64,000 nucleotides of DNA, taken from Methylocaldum sp. 14B (GTDB taxonomy: Bacteria; Pseudomonadota; Gammaproteobacteria; Methylococcales; Methylococcaceae). Positions 2,233-21,677 of this stretch are shown here, one piece after another. Under the pieces are notes generated by a model. That model saw only the letters and a list, made by a program, of their open reading frames with translations. It ran no database searches and was not told the DNA's origin. Location of the stretch: the NCBI RefSeq assembly GCF_002005105.1, contig NZ_MSCV01000002.1:1-64000 (forward strand). Direction: 5' to 3'. The stretch's first letter is position 1. Every line of letters starts with the position of its first letter. The position numbers and the translations under genes were made by a program.

Positions 2233-3186
2233 ATGGAATTCAAGGATTATTACAAGATCATGGGTGTATCCAGAGACGCCTCGCAAGAGGATATAAAGCG
2301 AGCCTATCGTAAGCTCGCCCGCAAATATCATCCGGACGTCAGCAAGGAACGTAATGCCGAGGAGCGCTTCAAGGAACTTGGCGAGGCTTATGAAGTTTTG
2401 AAAGACCCGGAAAAGCGCGCGGCTTACGATCAAATCGCGGCCGGTCGCCAGCACGGCGAACGTTTTACGCCTCCACCCGACTGGGCATTTGACTTCGACT
2501 TTGGTGGTGGCGGTTTTACGGGGAGCGACGCAAGCGGATTTAGCGATTTTTTCGACAGCCTATTCGGCCGGGCTACGCGAGGCGGGCGGAGAGAACCCCG
2601 TAGCGGCTGGACCGGACCTCTATCTGGCCAGGATCAATATGCCAACATTTACATCAGCCTCGACGAGGCATTCTCGGGAGGGACTCAAACGGTTACTCTT
2701 GCGAGCCCGGAAATCGATGCAAAAGGCAGGGTTGTTAACAAGACCCGCACCTTAAACGTCAAGATACCGAAAGGCGTCAAAGAAGGACAACGCATTCGCC
2801 TGTCCGGGCAGGGCGGATCGGGTCGGTTGGGCGGCACGGCGGGTGATCTTTATCTGGAAATACGATTTAAGCCTCATCCATTCTTTCGCGCCGAAGGCGC
2901 GGATATCTCGCTGGAGTTGCCAGTAACGCCCTGGGAGGCCGCTCTCGGACTTTCGGTTCCCACACCGACGTTAGGCGGCAAAGTCGAACTCAAGCTCCCT
3001 CCTAACTCTCAAAGTGGGCAGAGGCTGCGCTTAAAAGGCCGCGGGCTGCCCTGCACTCCACCAGGAGATCAAATTGTAACTCTGCGCATCGTGATTCCGG
3101 AGGCCACAACCACGGAGGCCAAGTCTCTCTATAGAAAGATGGCCGAGGTCATGCCGATGAATCCACGGGCGCATATGGGAGCGTGA
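2233..3186 (+). CDS. cbpA: DnaJ-class co-chaperone CbpA
   Basis: Class B J-domain co-chaperone that stimulates DnaK ATPase and can bind curved DNA in the E. coli family member. The J domain occupies about residues 4-68 with the HPD tripeptide at 33-35. It is followed by a Gly/Phe-rich segment (about 75-125) and the double beta-sandwich DnaJ C-terminal region (about 140-305). There are no CxxCxGxG zinc repeats, which separates it from DnaJ proper. At 317 residues it has the usual CbpA length. The next gene is its dedicated modulator CbpM, and hsp20 follows, so this is a three-gene stress cluster. Confidence 0.92.
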   Translation: MEFKDYYKIMGVSRDASQEDIKRAYRKLARKYHPDVSKERNAEERFKELGEAYEVLKDPEKRAAYDQIAAGRQHGERFTPPPDWAFDFDFGGGGFTGSDASGFSDFFDSLFGRATRGGRREPRSGWTGPLSGQDQYANIYISLDEAFSGGTQTVTLASPEIDAKGRVVNKTRTLNVKIPKGVKEGQRIRLSGQGGSGRLGGTAGDLYLEIRFKPHPFFRAEGADISLELPVTPWEAALGLSVPTPTLGGKVELKLPPNSQSGQRLRLKGRGLPCTPPGDQIVTLRIVIPEATTTEAKSLYRKMAEVMPMNPRAHMGA

Positions 3187-3188
3187 AC

Positions 3189-3491
3189 ATGACGAATCGG
3201 ACCGCTACCTCCTCGTCCGGTATGGTATTGGACGAAACGATTAAACTATCTCTGGTAGATGTATGCGAGGCATGCAGAGTCGACGCGGAATCCATTTTTG
3301 AAATGGTTAACGAAGGAATTGTCGATCCAGAAGGCTCGGAGCCGATGAATTGGCAATTCAACACCGCCGCGTTACGGCGCTTGCAAACGGCGTTACATCT
3401 GCAACGCGATCTCGGGGTTAACCTGCCCGGCGCGGCACTGGCATTGGATTTACTCGAAGAACTCGAGGCTTTACGCCGGCGCGCGCTGTAA
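3189..3491 (+). CDS. cbpM: chaperone modulator CbpM
   Basis: Small helical, MerR-like protein of the CbpM family, which binds the J domain of CbpA and inhibits its activity. The ATG at 3189 is preferred because GGGAG (3177-3181) is 7 bases upstream; a GTG at 3183 overlapping the cbpA stop is too close to that site. The product is 100 residues, close to the 101 of E. coli CbpM, and carries the segment LVDVCEACRVDAESIFEMVN typical of the N-terminal helical domain. It directly follows cbpA. Confidence 0.85.
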   Translation: MTNRTATSSSGMVLDETIKLSLVDVCEACRVDAESIFEMVNEGIVDPEGSEPMNWQFNTAALRRLQTALHLQRDLGVNLPGAALALDLLEELEALRRRAL

Positions 3492-3511
3492 GTGACATTT
3501 TAGGGCCTTCT

Positions 3512-4006
3512 ATGAACACGCTGAACCACATACACCACGGTCTACACCATACTTTGCATTCGCTTGCCGAAGGCTGGTCTGCCTTGAAACAACGAGCGTC
3601 CCATGCACTCACGCGCTTTACACTTCGCGAGCCTCCTCACGAAGGGGGAAAATTGACGCAGGGAGCGTCGCGATGGGGTTTATTGCCAGCGGAAGTGCGG
3701 GAGGAGAATGATCGGATTACGATCGATATAGAAATCCCGGGAATGGAGGCCGACGATTTCGAAATACAAATCCTCGAAGATCAGCTAATCGTCCGGGGCG
3801 AAAAGCGAAATGCGCACGAGGGAAGCATTGGCGAACGTTATTTTCTGTTGGAACGAGCCTATGGTTTTTTTGAGCGGGTCATACATCTGCCTGCCGAGAT
3901 TGACCAGGACAACATAAAGGCGCGTTACCGGCGCGGAGTTTTATCGATTTCGTTGCCCAAATCCAGCCATAACCATTCGCAACGGATAACGGTGACTACA
4001 GCATGA
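3512..4006 (+). CDS. small heat-shock protein (Hsp20)
   Basis: ATP-independent holdase of the alpha-crystallin family that keeps unfolding proteins soluble for refolding by DnaK. An N-terminal arm of about 50 residues rich in His precedes the alpha-crystallin domain (about residues 60-155), with the signature ARYRRGVLSISLPK near the end. Its 164 residues are somewhat longer than IbpA. It lies 20 bases after cbpM and is likely co-transcribed with cbpA-cbpM. Confidence 0.9.
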   Translation: MNTLNHIHHGLHHTLHSLAEGWSALKQRASHALTRFTLREPPHEGGKLTQGASRWGLLPAEVREENDRITIDIEIPGMEADDFEIQILEDQLIVRGEKRNAHEGSIGERYFLLERAYGFFERVIHLPAEIDQDNIKARYRRGVLSISLPKSSHNHSQRITVTTA

Positions 4007-9163: not shown

Positions 9164-11119
9164 ATGCAGGATCTACCGTCGATCGAAATTTTGCGCAGCT
9201 CACAGCCGCCAAGGGATTTCTTGGGGTATTCCGGCGCAGACCTGCCACCCGCAAGATCCCACCGTCTCATGGTGTTTACCTGTGCGTTCTTGCTCGCCTT
9301 CGTGACCGGCGCGACTTTTGTGTGGCTGCGCGAGCCGGTCTATGAGAGCACGGCCGCATTGCTTACGGTAGCGCCTACCGCCATAGACGAAGCAGACGCG
9401 AAAGCCAGCGTCCAGCACGTTACTGTACAAAGCGAGATCCTGCTCGGCGTCCCTTTGCTTGAAGCAACTTTGAGAAACTTGAGAGCCGCTGATGACGCAC
9501 CCGAATTGTCCGACTTGACTGTCGGCGATCTTCAGGCCTTGCTCTCGGTCGATGTCGTAATCGAGACCAACATCGTTAAGCTGCACGCCAAAGGATCGAA
9601 CCCCAAGGTTCTGGCTTCGGTCATTAACGCTTGGATCGATGCCTATCAAGCGCGCCGTGAACGACAGACCCGCGAAACGAAAGACGGCACCGCCACGGCC
9701 TTGCAGCTCGAATTTCAACAGCTCGCCCAAAAAATCGAGGCAAAGCGCTGGGAACTGGATCAATTTCGCCGTAAACACGGCATCGTTTCGAAAAACGACG
9801 CTGATAACCGCGCCATGGCCCGGCTTTCCGGTCTCAACACCGCACTCAACAAAGCCACCGAGGACGAGGTCAAAGCGAAAGCCCAGCTCGACGCCATCAA
9901 AGAGGCCATCGCCCGAGGCGAGCCCGTGGTGCCGCCCAGCGATGAGCAAGGATTGGCGAATCTGGAAAAGAAAGCGCACGACCTGCGCCAGCAGCTCAAG
10001 GATTTGAAACGCCGATACACGTCTCAATACCTTTCGCTACAGCCTCAGTTCAAGCTTATTCCGGAACAGCTCAAACAAACCGAAGACGAGATCAAGAAAA
10101 AGCTCGAATACGGGAAACAGAACGCATTGAGCGAAGCACAACAGGCTTATGCGTCCGCTCAACAGACCGTCCGGGAAATACGCCGTCAAATCGAGGCGCA
10201 TGAGCAGGAGGCGACCGAGTTCACAAGCCGTTTCGCCGAGCATGAGGCTATGCGCGCAAACCTCAAAAAGCTTGAAGAGGTTTACCGCGACGCCGAAATC
10301 CGGCTGGCACAGGTCGAAGCGAAACCTTACGAAAACCTCCCTCAACTCCAGGTCTTGGAACGGGGCTATGCCCCGGCTCGACCAATCTGGCCGAATTATT
10401 GGCGCGACAGCGGTATCGTCTTCGGCGGCAGCCTCGGCCTCGGCCTGATCACCGTGTGGCTTTACGAATACCTCACGCGCAGGGAAACCCCGCCGCCTGC
10501 GACAGTCTTACCCGATATCCACGTTTATTCGGTGCCGGAAAAAATTTTGCTTGAGCGTCGAATGACAACGCCGTCGGCCCTTCCCGCAGAACAATTTCCC
10601 GCTTTGGAAAGCCCGACGATACGAGAACTGACCGAGCCGGAGATCCGCGTATTACTGGAAGCGGCCAATCGCAGCACCAAATGGACGATAGGCCTGCTTC
10701 TATCCGGTCTGAGCCTTGAGGAAATCGCGGAACTGCGTGCCGAGCAGTTCGAACACGCCGGTGATACGCTGCGTATCGACGGCAAAAATTCTAGGGCTGT
10801 GCCCATCCCTCGGCGCCTTAAACTTTGGTTGGCCGAAAGCGAAGACTTTCCCAACTTGGAAACGGACGACCCGGCATCGTTGATCGCCTGCGCGGCCGTC
10901 GATTCCGGCCTTGCGCAGCCCGAAACGATCGATGCATCCGCCCTGCGCCACACTTATATTAGTTATTTGGTCCGCCAAGGCATTCGGCTGTCCGAACTGG
11001 AGCGTATCGTCGGCCCGCTGCCGGCGAAAACGCTCGCTGGCTACGGACGCTTTTCTCCACCCGGTCCTGGATTGCCTGCCGAAAGCGTGCCGCTGATTTA
11101 TCCCGCTCTTAGGGTCTAA
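9164..11119 (+). CDS. Wzz/GumC-like protein fused to recombinase-like domain
   Basis: A 651-residue inner-membrane protein with an unusual layout. Residues about 34-55 form a first membrane helix, and residues 57-150 resemble the periplasmic Wzz domain of polysaccharide co-polymerases. A long coiled-coil region (about 160-395) follows, then the second membrane helix (about 416-434) preceded by a proline-rich ARPIWPNY segment. Where Wzc-type proteins carry a tyrosine kinase, this one has about 165 residues (485-650) resembling the catalytic fold of tyrosine recombinases: SGLSLEEIAELR (514-525), the beta-hairpin Lys in GKNSRAVPIP (K541), ALRHTY (593-598), and Y627 in LAGYGRF. Three active-site positions look replaced: the first Arg by S517, the His of HxLR by S592, and the His/Trp by P618. 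The fold may therefore persist without catalysis. An ABC exporter gene follows after 10 bases. Confidence 0.8.
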   Translation: MQDLPSIEILRSSQPPRDFLGYSGADLPPARSHRLMVFTCAFLLAFVTGATFVWLREPVYESTAALLTVAPTAIDEADAKASVQHVTVQSEILLGVPLLEATLRNLRAADDAPELSDLTVGDLQALLSVDVVIETNIVKLHAKGSNPKVLASVINAWIDAYQARRERQTRETKDGTATALQLEFQQLAQKIEAKRWELDQFRRKHGIVSKNDADNRAMARLSGLNTALNKATEDEVKAKAQLDAIKEAIARGEPVVPPSDEQGLANLEKKAHDLRQQLKDLKRRYTSQYLSLQPQFKLIPEQLKQTEDEIKKKLEYGKQNALSEAQQAYASAQQTVREIRRQIEAHEQEATEFTSRFAEHEAMRANLKKLEEVYRDAEIRLAQVEAKPYENLPQLQVLERGYAPARPIWPNYWRDSGIVFGGSLGLGLITVWLYEYLTRRETPPPATVLPDIHVYSVPEKILLERRMTTPSALPAEQFPALESPTIRELTEPEIRVLLEAANRSTKWTIGLLLSGLSLEEIAELRAEQFEHAGDTLRIDGKNSRAVPIPRRLKLWLAESEDFPNLETDDPASLIACAAVDSGLAQPETIDASALRHTYISYLVRQGIRLSELERIVGPLPAKTLAGYGRFSPPGPGLPAESVPLIYPALRV

Positions 11120-11129
11120 CGACTTAGAA

Positions 11130-12968
11130 ATGGTTTCCGATTCCAGTCCTCAGAATTCCCACCGCTTCACCTGGGCTTATATCCGATCCGTCGCATTGGA
11201 GCACAAGCGCGAATTGTTCACCGCTCACCTGATCGCCGTGTTCGCGGCCTTGAGCGCGGTCCCCGTGCCTTTACTCATGCCGCTGCTGGTGGACGAGGTC
11301 TTGTTGAACAAGCCCGGCATGGCCGTCGGCCTGCTCGGCCGGCTTTTTCCCGCCGAATGGCATGGGCCGGCCCTGTATATTTCGGCCATACTGGGGCTTA
11401 CTTTGCTCCTGCGCCTGATTGCGGCGATCTTCAACGTGTGGCAGACGCGGCAGTTCAGCTTTATTGCCAAAGACACCATCTATCGCATCCGCTGCCGGCT
11501 GATCGGCAAGCTGCAGCGCATCTCCATGGCGGAATACGAAAATCTCGGCAGCGGCTCCGTCGTGACCCATCTGGTCACCGACCTCGATACGCTCGATACG
11601 TTCATCGGCACAACCGTCGCGCGCTTCGTGGTGGCGTTACTGTCCTTGACCGGCACCGCCGTCATTCTACTGTGGATGCATTGGCAGCTTGCGCTGTTCA
11701 TCCTGTTCCTGAATCCAATCGTGATTTTTTTCACCAAATCGCTGGGAAAACGGGTAAAAAATCTGAAGCGCGAAGAAAATTCCGCGATCGGCGCCTTTCA
11801 GCTCGCACTCACCGAAACCCTGGATGCCATCCATCAAATCCGGGCCAGCAATCGGGAGAAGCACTACATGGGGCGGCTGATGGAAGCGGCACGGACGGTT
11901 CGCGAGAATTCGGCCGCCTACGCCTGGAAAAGCGACGCCGCCAACCGGGTCAGTTTTCTGGTCTTCCTGTTCGGGTTCGACGTCTTCCGCGCCTTGGCTT
12001 TTTTTATGGTGATCTACTCCGACCTCACCGTCGGCGAGATGATGGCGGTCTCGGGCTACCTGTGGTTCATGATGACCCCGGTGCAGGAGATTCTGGGAAT
12101 ACAGTACGCCTGGTTCGGCGCGAAGGCGGCGCTGGAGCGGATCAACCAATTGAATGACCTGAAGCAGGAGCCGAAGTACCCGCATCTGATCGATCCCTTC
12201 GAAAAGGATAGGAGAGTGGGCATCTTCATCGACGATCTTCACTTCGCCTATCCGAACGGCAACGAGGTTTTGCGCGGCATCTCCATGGACATCCGCCCCG
12301 GCGAGAAAGTCGCGTTGATCGGTGCAAGCGGCGGCGGCAAATCGACCTTGGTGCAAGTATTGATCGGCCTTTATCCCCCGACTTCGGGCATGGTCTATTT
12401 CAACGGCGCGCCTATGGACAAAATCGGGATGGACGTGATACGGGAACATGTGGTCACGGTATTGCAGCACCCGGTGCTGTTCAACGACACCGTCCGAGCC
12501 AACCTGACCCTGGGCCGTCCGGCGCCCGACGAAGCACTCTGGCGCGCGCTCGAAATCGCCCAACTCAGGGACGTGGTGGAAGACAGCCGCGACCGGCTGG
12601 ATACCGTCGTCGGCCGGCTGGGCATGCGGCTTTCCGGTGGTCAGCGCCAAAGGCTGGCGATCGCCCGCATGATCCTGGCCGATCCCAAGGTGGTGATCCT
12701 CGACGAAGCGACCTCGGCCATCGACAATGAAACCGAGACCCGCTTGTACGAAGGTCTGGACGAATTCCTCGCGGACCGCACGACGATCATCGTCGCCCAC
12801 CGCTTGAGCGCGATCAAACACGCCGACCGCATTTACGTGTTCGAGGACGGGCGCATTTGCGAGCAGGGCGATCATGAAACCCTGGTTTCCGGCAAAGGTT
12901 TGTACGCGCGGCTCTATGGCCAGAAACCCGCGGTGCGGCGCGCACGGGATCTATCGTTCACCTCCTAA
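11130..12968 (+). CDS. ABC exporter, fused membrane and ATPase domains
   Basis: A 612-residue half-transporter of the MsbA-like exporter type, expected to dimerise and expel a lipid, glycan or peptide. Six membrane helices lie within about residues 28-320. The ATPase domain has Walker A GASGGGKST (398-406), signature LSGGQ (501-505), Walker B VVILDE (521-526) and the switch His in IVAHRLS. There is no C39 peptidase domain at the N-terminus, so it is not a classic bacteriocin processor. It starts 10 bases after the co-polymerase-like fusion and the two are likely one operon. The cargo is unknown; a surface polysaccharide precursor is a reasonable guess from its neighbour. Confidence 0.88.
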   Translation: MVSDSSPQNSHRFTWAYIRSVALEHKRELFTAHLIAVFAALSAVPVPLLMPLLVDEVLLNKPGMAVGLLGRLFPAEWHGPALYISAILGLTLLLRLIAAIFNVWQTRQFSFIAKDTIYRIRCRLIGKLQRISMAEYENLGSGSVVTHLVTDLDTLDTFIGTTVARFVVALLSLTGTAVILLWMHWQLALFILFLNPIVIFFTKSLGKRVKNLKREENSAIGAFQLALTETLDAIHQIRASNREKHYMGRLMEAARTVRENSAAYAWKSDAANRVSFLVFLFGFDVFRALAFFMVIYSDLTVGEMMAVSGYLWFMMTPVQEILGIQYAWFGAKAALERINQLNDLKQEPKYPHLIDPFEKDRRVGIFIDDLHFAYPNGNEVLRGISMDIRPGEKVALIGASGGGKSTLVQVLIGLYPPTSGMVYFNGAPMDKIGMDVIREHVVTVLQHPVLFNDTVRANLTLGRPAPDEALWRALEIAQLRDVVEDSRDRLDTVVGRLGMRLSGGQRQRLAIARMILADPKVVILDEATSAIDNETETRLYEGLDEFLADRTTIIVAHRLSAIKHADRIYVFEDGRICEQGDHETLVSGKGLYARLYGQKPAVRRARDLSFTS

Positions 12969-16231: not shown

Positions 16232-19200
16232 TCATTGTTTTGGCTCCCCCACCCTAATCTTCTCCCAGAGGGAGAGGAGATTGGACCCGACTCTGGATTC
16301 GCCGTAGCGACGGTAGAGAATGGGCAGCAGCACCAAGGTCAGCAGCGTCGACGTGAAGAGTCCGCCGACGCCGACCACCGCCAGCGGCCGCTGGATTTCC
16401 GAGCCCGGGCCGGTCGCGAACAACAGCGGAATGAGTCCGAAGGCGGCGATGCCGGCGGTCATCAGCACCGGCCGAAGCCGGCGCATTGCGCCCACTACCA
16501 CCGCTTCATCCATGGGTAGCCCCAGTACCCGCAGTTGATTGAAATAACTCACCATCACCACGCCGTTCAGCACCGCGATGCCCAATAGGGAAATGAAGCC
16601 CACCGAGGCCGACACCGAGAGATATTCTCCGGAAATCCAGACGCCGTACACGCCCCCAATGAGCGCCAGGGGCACGTTGGCCAAGACCAGAATGGCCTGG
16701 CGCACCGAACCGAAGGTGGAAAACAGAAGCAGGAAGATCAGCCCGATCGACACCGGAATAACCACGGCCAAGCGGGCGGCGGCCCGCTGCTGGTTTTCGA
16801 ACTGGCCGCCCCATTCGATGTAATAGCCGGTAGGCAGCTGCACCTGGCCGGCCACGGCCTGCTTGGACTCTTCCACGAAGCCCACCAGATCCCGCCCCTC
16901 GACGTTGCTGCGCACCGATGTGTAGCGCTGGCCCCGCTCGCGGTTGACCGCCACCACGCCTTCCACCGGCTCGATTTTGGCGACTACCGACAATGGCACC
17001 CGGCGCCCGTCGGGCAAGGCGATCTGCAGGGTGGACATATTGGCCGGCTCTCCGGAGCCTCTGAGCAGCAACGGCGTGCGGCGGATGCCCTCCTGGACGA
17101 TGCCGAGCTTGAGCCCCTCGATCTGGGCCCGCAAGGTGTCGGCCAGAGAATCCGCATCCAACCCCAGGCGTCCCGCGGCCAGCCGGTCCACTTTCACCAC
17201 CAGGTACTGCATGCCTTCGTTGCGGATGGTGAACACGTCCGAAGCGCCGGGAATCTTTCGCATCACGGCGGCGATTTCCTCCGCCTTGGCGTTGAGCACG
17301 GCGAGTTCCGGGCCGTACAGCTTGACCGCCACGTCGCCGCGCACTCCGGTCAGCATCTCGGTGACCCGCATCTGAATCGGCTGAGTGAAGCCGTAAGCGA
17401 TGCCGGGAATGGTATCCAGAACCTTACGGATTTCGTCGATCAGGGCTTCCTTGCTGTCCATGCGCCATTCGTCCGGCGGCTTGAGGACGAAGAAGTTGTC
17501 GGTCTCGTTGAGTCCCATGGGGTCGAGGCCGATCTCGTCCGCGCCGACGCGGGATACGGCCCGCGTCACTTCCGGCACGTGCTCCAGGATAGCCTTCTGG
17601 ATTTGCTGGTCCAGGCGCACCGACTGCTCCAGCGTGATGGACGGCAGTTTCTCCACCTGCACGATGATGTCGCCCTCGTCCATGGTGGGCATGAAGGTCT
17701 TGCCGATCTGGAAATAAACGCCCACAGTGGACAGCAGCAGCAGTCCCGCGCCGAGCAACACGGTACGGCCGTGAGCGAGGGACCAGATCAGGACCGGGCG
17801 GTACCATTCCGAGAGCTTCCGCGCCAGCCAGGGCTCCTCGTGTTTGACGCGCTTCATCAGGAAAGAGGCCACGACCGGGATCACGACCAAGGAGAAGATC
17901 AACGATCCGCTCATGGCGAACACGTTGGTGAAGGCCAAGGGCTTGAACATCTTGCCTTCCAGGCCCTCCAGGGTAAACAGCGGCACGAACACGACGCCGA
18001 TGATGATCGTCCCCGAGACCACGGGCGCGGTGACTTCGCGCATGGCGCGGTAGATCGCGTGCAGTCGCGGCACTCGATTCGTCTTGCTCTGCTCAGCGAG
18101 ATGGGTGGTGATGTTCTCCACCACCACCACCGCCGGGTCGACCAGCTTGCCGATCGCGATGGCGAGCCCGCCGAGACTCATGAGATTGGCCGTCAGGCCG
18201 AAGTGGTTCATCAGCAGAAAGGTGAACAGGGCCACCATGGGCAGAATGAAGGCGACGGTCAGCGCGGCCCGGAGATCGCCGAGGAACAGAACCAGCAGGA
18301 TCAGCACCAGAACGGTAGCCTCCACCAAGGCCCGGACGATGGTGTTTATGGCTTTCCCGACCAAGTCGCCGCGGTTGTAGAACACGCTGACTTTGACCTC
18401 CTTGGGCAAAGCCGGGCGGATTTCCTCGAGCTTCTTCTCGACTCCTTCCACCACCTGCCGGGCATTCGCTCCCCTGAGGCTCAGCACCAAACCCTCGACC
18501 GCTTCGCTCCGGCCGTTCTGGCTCACGGCGCCGTAGCGGGTCAGGGCGCCTATGCGGACGTCGGCCACGTCGCCCACGGTGATGGACGTGCCGTTCCGCT
18601 CCGCGACGACGATGGTGCGCACGTCGTCCAGGTCGACGATCCGCCCCTCGGTACGCACCAGAAGCGCCTCCTCGCCTTGGGCCAAACGGCCGGCGCCGTC
18701 GTTGCGGTTATTGGACTTGAGCGCCTCGGCCAGTTCCCCGATGCTCACACCGCGCGCCGCCATCCGCATGTTGTCGGGAATGACCTCGAAGCTTCTCACC
18801 ATCCCGCCCAATGCGTTCACGTCGGCGACGCCCGGCACCGTGCGCAGCGCCGGTCTAATCACCCAGTCCAGGAGGGTTCGCCGCTCGGAGAGGCTCAAGC
18901 CATCGCCTTCCACCGTAAACATGAACATCTCGCCCAAAGGCGTGGTCATGGGTGCGATACCGCCTTCCGCGTTGCCCGGCAGATTTCCCCAAACCTCGTT
19001 CAGGCGCTCCGCCACCTGTTGGCGCGCCCAATAAATATCGGTGCCCTCCTCGAAGTCGATGGTGATGTCGGTAAGCGCGTATTTCGCGATGGAGCGGAGC
19101 ATGGTCTGCCTGGGGATGCCGAGCATTTCCACCTCGATGGGCGCCGTGACGCGCGCTTCCACCTCTTCCGGGGTCATGCCGGGCACCTTGATGATGATCT

Positions 19201-19342
19201 TGACCTGAGTCGGCGAAACGTCCGGAAAGGCATCGATGGGCAGATTGGCCGCGGCGAACCAGCCGGCGCCGGCCAGGAGCAGGGCGCTCAGCAAGGCGAA
19301 CAGGCGCTGGGTCAGCGCGAACTGGATCAAACGTGCGATCAC
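16232..19342 (-). CDS. heavy-metal efflux RND pump (CusA/CzcA family)
   Basis: Inner-membrane proton-driven transporter of the HME-RND family that moves metal ions from periplasm or cytoplasm into the tripartite channel. The 1036-residue length with two sets of large periplasmic loops and twelve membrane helices is typical. Helix 4 carries the proton-relay Asp in AIAIGKLVDPAVVVVEN; the bases around VD (KLVDP) differ from the G/A-x-x-VD-A/G seen in well-studied CzcA and CusA proteins as I remember them, so I do not assign the metal. It is translated from a start overlapping the adaptor stop by 4 bases. Confidence 0.92.
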   Translation of the reverse strand: MIARLIQFALTQRLFALLSALLLAGAGWFAAANLPIDAFPDVSPTQVKIIIKVPGMTPEEVEARVTAPIEVEMLGIPRQTMLRSIAKYALTDITIDFEEGTDIYWARQQVAERLNEVWGNLPGNAEGGIAPMTTPLGEMFMFTVEGDGLSLSERRTLLDWVIRPALRTVPGVADVNALGGMVRSFEVIPDNMRMAARGVSIGELAEALKSNNRNDGAGRLAQGEEALLVRTEGRIVDLDDVRTIVVAERNGTSITVGDVADVRIGALTRYGAVSQNGRSEAVEGLVLSLRGANARQVVEGVEKKLEEIRPALPKEVKVSVFYNRGDLVGKAINTIVRALVEATVLVLILLVLFLGDLRAALTVAFILPMVALFTFLLMNHFGLTANLMSLGGLAIAIGKLVDPAVVVVENITTHLAEQSKTNRVPRLHAIYRAMREVTAPVVSGTIIIGVVFVPLFTLEGLEGKMFKPLAFTNVFAMSGSLIFSLVVIPVVASFLMKRVKHEEPWLARKLSEWYRPVLIWSLAHGRTVLLGAGLLLLSTVGVYFQIGKTFMPTMDEGDIIVQVEKLPSITLEQSVRLDQQIQKAILEHVPEVTRAVSRVGADEIGLDPMGLNETDNFFVLKPPDEWRMDSKEALIDEIRKVLDTIPGIAYGFTQPIQMRVTEMLTGVRGDVAVKLYGPELAVLNAKAEEIAAVMRKIPGASDVFTIRNEGMQYLVVKVDRLAAGRLGLDADSLADTLRAQIEGLKLGIVQEGIRRTPLLLRGSGEPANMSTLQIALPDGRRVPLSVVAKIEPVEGVVAVNRERGQRYTSVRSNVEGRDLVGFVEESKQAVAGQVQLPTGYYIEWGGQFENQQRAAARLAVVIPVSIGLIFLLLFSTFGSVRQAILVLANVPLALIGGVYGVWISGEYLSVSASVGFISLLGIAVLNGVVMVSYFNQLRVLGLPMDEAVVVGAMRRLRPVLMTAGIAAFGLIPLLFATGPGSEIQRPLAVVGVGGLFTSTLLTLVLLPILYRRYGESRVGSNLLSLWEKIRVGEPKQ

Positions 19343-20430
19343 TCTTCTTCTCCCATGCCGAGCCAGGCGGCCTTCAGCGCGGCCACGCCTTGCACGGCCA
19401 CTTCCTCGCCCGCGTCCAAGCCTTCGTGAATGACGACGCTATAGGCTTCCAGACCGGCCACCGCCACTTCGCGCGCGACAAAACCCTCAGGCGTTTGCAC
19501 GAACACGTAGTTTCGGCCTTCGTGGCCGACCAACGCGGCGACGGGCAGGCGGAAAATCAGGTCGGTGCTTTTGTGCATCAGTTGCGCGTTTATGTGCATG
19601 CCCGGCCGCAGATCCTCCGCCGGGCTGTCGACCACGGCCCGTACCAAAGCGCTTTGGCTCTTGGGATCCACGTGCTGACCGACCTCGATGATGCGGGCGG
19701 TGGCCCGAGAATTTTCCAGGCTGATGCGGTCGCCGATTCTCACCTCGTGCAGCCGTTCCTGAGGCATGTCGACCTCCAGCCACAATTCGTCCAGTCTGCC
19801 GACCCGAAACAGCGGCGCGAGTCTATCCACCCGCTGCCCCACCACGGCCATGCGTTCGAGCACGACGCCGTCTATCGGGGAACGCACTTCTATCAGACTG
19901 CTCAGCTGCCGATTAGTCTTAAGGCGCCGAATCTCGCCTTGGCCCAGCCCTGACGCCGCCAGGGTCTGTTCCGCTGCCCGCAGCGCCGCCTGAGCCTTGT
20001 CGAAATCGCTCTTGGTTTCCTGCCAGCGCAACCGGGAAATAATGCCCTCCTTAAGCAGAGTCTCGTCCCGTCTCAGCCGCGCTTGGGCCAAATTGAATTC
20101 GGAGGCGGCATCGAGCAATTCCCGTTGCAGGGCCAGCAAATCGGGACTCTGAATACGGGCGAGCACTTCGCCTTGTTTCACCCTTACGCCCAGGGGTACG
20201 GCGACGTTGCTGATCACTCCCGCTTGCGGGGCGCTGACGACGAATTCGTTCTGCGGCGGCAAGACGACGCGGGCCGGCGCCCGCGCCAGCGGCATGGCTG
20301 CAACCTCTTCCGGCTTCACCGTGCGGATTCCCAAATGTTTCGCTTGTTCCGCCGTAACCTGAACCGCATTCTCGGCCGCGAGTCCCGTCGCGCAAAAGCA
20401 TAAAAGCATGGACAAAAAGACGAGTCTCAT
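19339..20430 (-). CDS. RND periplasmic adaptor (CusB/CzcB type)
   Basis: Membrane-fusion protein linking the RND pump to the outer-membrane channel. The 363-residue protein has a signal peptide (about 1-18, LCFCATGLAA), two lipoyl half-motifs separated by a helical hairpin (about residues 95-175), a barrel domain, and a membrane-proximal domain. No N-terminal or C-terminal metal-binding His/Met extension is seen. It overlaps both neighbours by 4 bases, showing tight coupling. Confidence 0.9.
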   Translation of the reverse strand: MRLVFLSMLLCFCATGLAAENAVQVTAEQAKHLGIRTVKPEEVAAMPLARAPARVVLPPQNEFVVSAPQAGVISNVAVPLGVRVKQGEVLARIQSPDLLALQRELLDAASEFNLAQARLRRDETLLKEGIISRLRWQETKSDFDKAQAALRAAEQTLAASGLGQGEIRRLKTNRQLSSLIEVRSPIDGVVLERMAVVGQRVDRLAPLFRVGRLDELWLEVDMPQERLHEVRIGDRISLENSRATARIIEVGQHVDPKSQSALVRAVVDSPAEDLRPGMHINAQLMHKSTDLIFRLPVAALVGHEGRNYVFVQTPEGFVAREVAVAGLEAYSVVIHEGLDAGEEVAVQGVAALKAAWLGMGEEE

Positions 20431-21677
20431 GGCGTGACTCCGACCACTTGGTTGTAGACCGCGATATCCCGCTGCAACAGGATGGCCCGTTCGGCGGCAT
20501 CGCGAATGGCGGCCTGGGCGGTGGCCTGGATCTTGAGATAATCGATCAGCGAAATCTCCCCGGTCTCGAACGCGAGCCGGCTCATTTTGAGCTGGGACTC
20601 GGCGATTTCCCGCCGCCTTTCGGCGATCGTCAGGGCGGCGCGATCGACCTCGAGATTGTGTATCGCCTCATGCAGCGCCTTCTCCAACTGCCGCAACAAG
20701 ATGTCCCGATCAGTCAGGCGCTGGGTCAGGACGATATTGGCCTCGGCCACGAACGGCGCGTTATAGGCCTCACCGCCGATGGGGATTTGCAGCACGAAGT
20801 TGGTTTCGTTGTTATAGCCTTCTTTTCGGGTGCCCCGTTCGTGCTGGGTACCGACCAGAATCGAAGGCTGGTTGCCCTGCTTGGACCTGCGGGTGAACTC
20901 GACTTCGGCCTGGGCGCGCTCGATCAATGCGTTGGCGACGGCCAGGGCCGGATGGCTCTCGTCGAACGTGCTGCGGGGGCTTTGCTCCTCCTCGAAAAAT
21001 TTCGGCGCACGCTCCAGGCGGGTCAGATTGGAATAGCTCTTGCGGGCATGCATCACCTCCGCTTCGGCCTGAACAACCGCGGTCTTTTTCTCCAGCTCGT
21101 CGCTTTCCGCAAGCAGCAAGTCTGCCCGCGCGAGGTCGCCGACATCGACACGCCGTTGCACCAGGGCGGTCAACTGCCTGGAAACCTCGTAGATACGCTC
21201 GGCAAGCTCATATCGGTTTTCCACCAGCCGAAGGTTCCATAGGGCATCGCGCACCAGGCCCGCCACCTCGTGCCTTATCGCCCGCGCGAGCAAAGCGGTG
21301 CTCTGCGTCGCTTCCTCGGCCACGGCCCTGCTCGCCGCGCGCTGGCCCCACATCCATACCGGAATTTGATAGCCGGTCTGTATTTCCACCGCGCCGCGAT
21401 CGTTAAAGGCACGATCGTCGATCCATTGCAGATAGACCGCAGGGTAACCCGCTATCCAACTGGCACTGCGGCGCTCCAGAGCCTTAGCCTCATTCTCGAA
21501 AGCCGCGATGAGAGCGCTTTGCGGGTATTTTTCGAAAGTGGCCTCGATGACCTGGCCAAGGCTCAGCGATTCGTCGAACACCAGCTCATCGTAATGATCG
21601 ACAAAGCGCTCTTCGGAGGCGACGGGCGCGATCGCGAAAAAACAAGCCGCGCCTGCCACACACACTAAAAGCTTCAT
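20427..21677 (-). CDS. TolC-family outer-membrane channel (CzcC type)
   Basis: Outer-membrane factor of the efflux system. The 416-residue protein begins with a signal peptide ending near SEERF and has two repeated helical hairpins typical of OEP domains (about residues 35-215 and 235-410). It is the first gene of the three that overlap by 4 bases each, so channel, adaptor and pump are made together. Confidence 0.88.
   Translation of the reverse strand: MKLLVCVAGAACFFAIAPVASEERFVDHYDELVFDESLSLGQVIEATFEKYPQSALIAAFENEAKALERRSASWIAGYPAVYLQWIDDRAFNDRGAVEIQTGYQIPVWMWGQRAASRAVAEEATQSTALLARAIRHEVAGLVRDALWNLRLVENRYELAERIYEVSRQLTALVQRRVDVGDLARADLLLAESDELEKKTAVVQAEAEVMHARKSYSNLTRLERAPKFFEEEQSPRSTFDESHPALAVANALIERAQAEVEFTRRSKQGNQPSILVGTQHERGTRKEGYNNETNFVLQIPIGGEAYNAPFVAEANIVLTQRLTDRDILLRQLEKALHEAIHNLEVDRAALTIAERRREIAESQLKMSRLAFETGEISLIDYLKIQATAQAAIRDAAERAILLQRDIAVYNQVVGVTP

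Follow-up and report, generated by a model that had tools for sequence, protein, structure and literature searches.

A gene in the window (the 64,000-nucleotide stretch of Methylocaldum sp. 14B DNA analysed here) raises the question of what a domain resembling a tyrosine recombinase is doing at the cytoplasmic end of a protein that otherwise looks like a polysaccharide co-polymerase (PCP). Known PCPs come with a kinase, with a pseudokinase partner or without a cytoplasmic domain. A full-text literature search, outside which lie most subscription journals and all bioRxiv preprints, returned no description of a PCP with a recombinase-derived domain; a description elsewhere in the literature is possible. 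Features of the gene and of its downstream neighbour are collected in Table 1.

Table 1. Coordinates of the fusion gene, its parts and the adjoining exporter gene in the window.
Feature	Position	Strand	Basis or remark
Fusion gene, 651 aa: PCP-like N-terminal half and pseudo-recombinase C-terminal domain	9164..11119	+	
Transmembrane helix 1, about residues 30-55	9251..9328	+	AlphaFold2 helix 30-55; hydrophobicity judged by eye
Periplasmic PCP-like region, residues 56-411, with long coiled-coil helices	9329..10396	+	NCBIfam profiles, Foldseek
Transmembrane helix 2, about residues 412-438	10397..10477	+	AlphaFold2 helix, hydrophobic sequence
Cytoplasmic linker, residues 439-485	10478..10618	+	Low model confidence, poor conservation
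Catalytically dead Xer-type recombinase domain, residues 486-651	10619..11116	+	Profiles, predicted structure, residue counts
R595, counterpart of catalytic Arg II	10946..10948	+	77/81 (Thr 3, Ser 1)
Y627, equivalent of the nucleophile Tyr	11042..11044	+	74/81 (Leu in 7)
Y646-P647 tail motif	11099..11104	+	By-eye likeness to the XerD-like HPR(G/A) end
ABC exporter gene, MsbA-like, 10 bases downstream of the fusion	11130..12968	+	Under MsbA's own cut-off

The frame is unbroken over 651 codons. Both membrane helices were placed where the full-length AlphaFold2 model (mean pLDDT 82.8, pTM 0.42) has helices, at residues 30–55 and 412–438, and where the sequence is hydrophobic by eye. A Pro-rich stretch lies ahead of the second helix, with P410 and Y412 invariant in 38/38 rows of alignment A4; A3 and A4 comprise the window protein together with 52 of the 62 named loci and with 37, respectively. 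Beyond that helix, pLDDT falls below 50 at residues 441–482 of the linker, after which the C-terminal domain stands as a separate unit.

Against NCBIfam, the N-terminal half resembles chain-length determinants of the XrtA/EpsF kind (TIGR03007, E 5.3e-15; EpsF, 5.9e-10; both under the curated cut-off). The Pfam family for Wzz, PF02706, left the fusion protein unmatched at E up to 1 and matched five other genes of the same genome, three of them above cut-off. Searches of the PDB with the full model using Foldseek (E up to 0.001) aligned the first half with structures of Wzc (1.6e-8), WzzE, KpsE and Wzz and the second half with XerA, P2 integrase and integron integrase; TM-scores by query length were low (0.17–0.28), and the match to the N-terminal half is not strong taken alone. 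The topology is that of the PCP superfamily, with two membrane helices (by eye) flanking a large periplasmic helical region that has the PCP fold. No kinase family in Pfam or NCBIfam matched the protein, which has no fused tyrosine kinase with a Tyr-rich tail. It is near certain that the architecture is a PCP-like half joined to a homologue of the Xer-type catalytic domain, and homology of the N-terminal half suggests a role in glycan export.

That a recombinase-like domain follows the second helix, as a preliminary description of this locus had proposed, is borne out by profiles and by predicted structure. The C-terminal 172 residues matched the PHROG_1 integrase (E 4.3e-8), a XerA model (1.7e-5) and P2 integrase (5c6k, 5.2e-5; 5dor, 7.4e-5), with Pfam PF00589 giving 0.0054, under its cut-off. 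In a one-against-one comparison, profile A3 (53 relatives) aligned with 14 XerD-like sequences at a probability of 98.4% (E 4.6e-15), and in other genomes the same profile also picks up ordinary recombinases, with scores reaching 58 bits and alignments that usually span positions 3–164 of 183. Modelled alone, the domain reached a mean pLDDT of 92.5 and a pTM of 0.89, and a Foldseek search, which could have overturned the assignment, found the tyrosine-recombinase catalytic-domain fold: 26/26 PDB matches with E up to 0.001 were tyrosine recombinases or integrases, led by XerA at 4.5e-6. A chance resemblance of motifs is ruled out by this significant profile homology and fold match; the family does invite misannotation as integrase. 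In recombinases, a core-binding domain closes the clamp on DNA. The fusion protein lacks one, its domain being preceded in the model by the low-confidence linker and a membrane helix. Elsewhere in this genome, contigs C5 and C13 hold two integrase-family matches with internal stops, probably decayed integrases of mobile elements.

Residues of the active site were counted in 81 distinct fusion sequences (91 minus 10 identical, with near-copies remaining), and the full catalytic set—Arg I, Lys, His II, Arg II, His/Trp and Tyr—proved incomplete in the family. Arg is absent from the Arg I position and His from the HxxR position (0/81 each), while Lys at the K541 position and His at the third-box His/Trp position are each found in 2/81. 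Ordinary recombinases aligned to the same profile served as controls: among their 21 stretches, the HxxR His and Arg II are each kept in 20, and Arg I, the third-box His and Tyr each in 19, with Lys aligned in only 8 of the 21, so that the Lys column is unreliable in the controls. These stretches derive from 22 loci, two of them (L007 and L008) unmatched and one (L003) yielding two partial stretches; 14 of the loci are best matches of the same profile and hence not a neutral sample, and names such as XerD and XerC are our own labels, assigned by motif. The preliminary description, which had read S517, S592 and P618 as replacements and K541, R595 and Y627 as retained, was correct for the window protein; taken family-wide, R595 and Y627 are mostly kept, whereas K541 is not a family feature and E520 and R544 are. 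Charge separates the two groups as well: the domain is acidic in the fusions (mean pI 5.21, mean charge −7.2, range −15.5 to +0.6, n = 81) and basic in the controls (mean pI 9.85, mean charge +6.1, range +1.9 to +11.6, n = 21). From what is established about the family, it is very unlikely that the domain still works as a DNA-cutting enzyme, and DNA binding by it would be unlikely.

A precedent for a recombinase fold that outlives its chemistry is the SPbeta phage repressor MrpR, whose job is still DNA binding; excerpts of the report describe a protein that, like the fusion, lacks Arg I and the catalytic His and keeps Glu and Tyr, the Tyr mattering for both binding and stability (PMC10516654). 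The fusion domain might similarly be a membrane-anchored module that grips DNA without cutting it and ties an envelope protein to either the chromosome or a promoter, as the large retention of Arg II, Glu and Tyr in the fusions would allow. Its acidic charge, set against the basic controls, and the low-confidence linker in place of a core-binding domain make such a role unlikely. MrpR differs, being described in the same excerpts as a soluble, DNA-binding protein that keeps Lys and the core-binding domain (PMC10516654).

Retained residues might also serve a pocket. E520 (Glu in 80, Asp in 1), R544, R595 and Y627 rank with the best-conserved positions in the domain (80, 81, 77 and 74 of 81), and this remnant of an active site could bind a phosphate-bearing ligand and signal to the periplasmic half. 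However, equivalents of E520 and R544 are equally conserved in ordinary recombinases (20 and 19 of 21 stretches), so they may be structural; Y627 is replaced by Leu in seven sequences and R595 by Thr or Ser in four; and conservation of R595, like that of H596 and Y598, is inflated because part of the named loci were fetched with the pattern [LIV]RHTY[IL]xYL[VI]. The kept Tyr of MrpR, moreover, matters for stability according to the available part of that report (PMC10516654). We consider ligand binding unlikely; candidate ligands would be a nucleotide sugar, a lipid-linked sugar or a second messenger.

How far does the pairing extend? Sought in related genomes as a set test of an assembly join, it recurs widely. 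Within the window's order, a one-frame fusion is present in 29 of 101 genomes (its own included; G049 cut by the contig end), with G003 and G055 among the single-contig genomes that have it, and in 61 of the 62 named loci (60 whole, L065 cut by its contig and L080 broken), which partly overlap the 101-genome set. An assembly join is refuted by this recurrence, and with the significant homology and fold added, the chance that the fusion reflects either a join or a fortuitous resemblance becomes negligible. In G027 the fusion is split over two frames (contig C101); there and in L080 the frame is broken while near relatives are intact, by sequencing error or recent inactivation.

The family is widespread but sparse. 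Named loci include Methylococcales, Nitrosomonas, Chromatiaceae, Sedimenticola, Neptunomonas, Accumulibacter, Rubrivivax, Paraglaciecola and Aliiglaciecola, and the domain is retained even where identity to the window protein drops to 22%. A sample of the class, in which at most nine candidates per genome were scored, contained the family in 6 of 369 genomes (its own included), with matches of at least 147 bits and frames of 662–685 aa; the next-best match after the fusions, among the matches listed, scored 58 bits. In a sample of the phylum it was found in 3 of 398 genomes (its own included) at E up to 1e-18, with frames of 662–680 aa. No free-standing version of the domain was seen among the matches listed for the class (369) or phylum (398) sample. 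Carriage by mobile elements or phages was dropped as an explanation, searches with the whole protein against plasmids (E 1e-5) and with the domain against phage records (E 1e-3) having come back empty.

Eight further genomes of the window's order (L121–L128) carry the N-terminal half alone, a short tail following the second membrane helix before the protein ends, and a ninth such gene is cut by the contig end. No recombinase-like domain was found around the eight genes in 13–16 kb per locus. A tree of the N-terminal half was built by quick search, without bootstrap, from 78 of the 81 fusions (three with short N-terminal parts omitted), eight of the nine N-only genes (omitting the contig-cut one) and six GumC/EpsF-like outgroup sequences. 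The eight N-only sequences form one group inside the fusion clade (SH-aLRT 98) and, with fusions L035 and L037, a group of ten rows (SH-aLRT 100). Long-branch warnings apply, including to seven fusions that fall beside the outgroup, and the branching order among L035, L037 and the N-only group is not settled. The simplest reading of the history would be one gain of the fusion and one loss. In L035 and L037 the Tyr is replaced by Leu, which looks as though the domain had begun to drift before it was lost in that group.

Such a loss could mean that the domain is a functionless vestige on its way out, and two observations fit this: the eight that lost it have as nearest fusion relatives the two with Leu for Tyr, and 13 of 19 related pairs show a higher dN/dS in the domain than in the N-terminal half, with equal values in one pair and a lower domain value in five (in one pair, L064/L080, the N-terminal value is affected by the broken L080 frame). 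Domain dN/dS was nevertheless only 0.07–0.31 across all 19 pairs tried, the fold is predicted intact with high confidence and even the members at 22% identity have kept it, so that we judge a vestige improbable. The domain is under purifying selection. Averaged over alignment columns, the most frequent residue accounts for a share of 0.51 at residues 486–635, close to the 0.52 seen in the periplasmic region, with 0.33 in the linker.

What, then, might a dead recombinase domain do beneath a PCP? Our preferred reading, to which we give a probability of about 0.5, is that the gene encodes an inner-membrane PCP/GumC-like protein in which the dead Xer domain is kept as a protein–protein module in the place of the Wzc kinase. 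The catalytic domain of a Xer-type recombinase, stripped of the core-binding domain that grips DNA, would have been joined to a PCP, would have lost DNA cleavage (with Arg I, Lys and both catalytic His) and its basic charge, and would have been retained by selection for its contacts with proteins. Sitting at the cytoplasmic site where Wzc-type PCPs carry a tyrosine kinase, the pseudo-recombinase might aid assembly or dissociation of the oligomer, or dock a cytoplasmic partner. Reuse of a recombinase fold as a non-catalytic cytoplasmic module, as envisaged in the preliminary description, is upheld; the binding or regulatory role that it added is still inferred. Among the findings that count against a protein–protein module, E520, R595 and Y627 are mostly kept, which could mean a residual pocket contacting a ligand or DNA, and the clade of eight that lost the domain seems to manage without it. 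That N-only clade also offers a natural domain-deletion set for comparison.

Comparison with known systems helps to place a protein–protein module. Like the PCP-2a proteins of the Wzc type, the fusion has two membrane helices, a large helical periplasmic part and one cytoplasmic domain after the second helix, and Wzc is its best full-length fold match; unlike in Wzc, that cytoplasmic domain is a dead recombinase rather than a P-loop kinase. Excerpts of one study describe Wzc kinase domains that form a ring, each tail entering the next, an arrangement that sets the oligomeric state (PMC12004946). The same excerpts report that in Myxococcus a dead kinase is proposed as a scaffold for a PCP, acting by binding alone; in this EpsV/EcpK system, as in our reading of the fusion, a PCP works with a catalytically dead cytoplasmic domain, although the EcpK pseudokinase is a separate kinase-like protein and the fusion's domain is fused and recombinase-like (PMC12004946). 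The fusion family would offer a natural test of the idea that the cytoplasmic domains of PCPs count as scaffolds for assembly and not for their kinase activity, and it would be a case of the recombinase fold leaving DNA altogether.

With XerD and XerA the domain shares a homologous catalytic-domain fold and possibly, by eye, an HP tail motif; it differs from them in its broken active site, acidic charge, missing core-binding domain and membrane anchor. Position 646 is Tyr or His in 75 of 81 fusions and position 647 is Pro in 80 of 81, near the point where each of the 14 XerD-like controls terminates in HPR(G/A); the comparison with the XerD profile stops before the tail, so that this resemblance was judged by eye. 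The conserved [YH]P tail may be a remnant of the Xer C-terminal end, and the likeliest contact of a protein–protein module would be that end of one subunit inserted into the cleft of its partner, as among Xer proteins. Parts of the XerA study bear on this in two ways: the Xer C-terminus is proposed to fit the partner's cleft, with a possible pseudo-fourfold arrangement at synapsis, and in the XerA crystal the cleft is occupied in cis by the subunit's own C-terminal helix rather than by that of a neighbour (PMC5052618). More tentatively, a Xer domain may have been recruited once, to the inner membrane, as a ring-former whose tail, running from subunit to subunit as in the proposed Xer synapse, closes a cytoplasmic collar under the PCP oligomer, an idea that we consider rather unlikely and rate lower because the XerA helix packs in cis. 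If true, the tail-into-neighbour kinase ring of Wzc would have been replaced by a wholly different fold, in a phosphorylation-free class of co-polymerase. Ring, tail exchange and glycan role of the fusion are all inferred.

The same Xer ancestry could point to division or chromosome segregation, with a XerD-like domain that brings the PCP to the septum by binding FtsK or XerC. Most of the ordinary recombinases with the highest scores are what we take to be XerD-like, and the domain has a weak Foldseek match (E 1.7e-3) to 5dcf, a structure that, in the part of the source available, has FtsK gamma bound to the XerD C-terminal domain (PMC5052618). The region past the Tyr nevertheless differs strongly from XerD-like sequences, and septal docking seems to us quite improbable.

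The exporter gene just downstream encodes permease and ATPase in one chain (Pfam), and genes matching FabA, beta-ketoacyl-ACP synthase I and TtcA lie on the other side of the fusion, on the minus strand. This arrangement recalls KpsE/KpsMT, in which a PCP-like protein accompanies an ABC exporter and of which KpsE is a fold match, yet linkage to an exporter is not general across the fusion family. A close homologue of the exporter (E up to 1e-150, 57–100% identity) is present in 73 of the 101 genomes, far above the fusion count; in the 30 fusion genomes (G027 counted) it adjoins the fusion in 17, lies elsewhere in 11 and was not found in two. Among the 57 of 62 named loci with at least 1,000 bases downstream, which overlap the 101-genome set, it adjoins the fusion in eight, all titled Methylococcaceae, Methylothermaceae or Methylohalobius. 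A constant ABC-exporter partner, a rule that the preliminary description had raised, is rejected on these counts, the exporter being commoner than the fusion and often not adjacent.

Twenty neighbouring proteins, on either strand, were annotated from 14 of the 62 named loci, and four of them had no Pfam match. A clear glycan gene stands beside one of the 14: at L055, a family 2 glycosyltransferase starts 13 bases past the fusion stop codon, a spacing shared, by clustering, with the neighbours at L059, which is from the methanotroph Methylotuvimicrobium buryatense, and at L060. The neighbour at L053 matches glycosyl hydrolase 17 below cut-off, and the rest match other families, among them PEP carboxylase, an SNF2 helicase, PpnN, methylguanine-DNA methyltransferase, a GAF/PEP-utilising enzyme and hemerythrin. 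An exporter or a glycosyltransferase thus lies beside some loci and unrelated genes beside others. Unlike the situation for Wzc, the five OPX genes of the window's genome are all on other contigs, and in the window the fusion is an orphan PCP-like gene, not the PCP of a visible capsule cluster. With one clear glycan neighbour among the 14 loci and the OPX genes elsewhere, even a tie to polysaccharide export would come from homology, a point that weighs against our preferred reading.

Two other gene groups were seen in the window: a CbpA-like DnaJ protein, a small MerR-like protein and Hsp20 encoded one after another (2233–4006), and an RND-type efflux set on the minus strand (16232–21677) comprising an AcrB-like pump, a HlyD-like adaptor and an outer membrane efflux protein.
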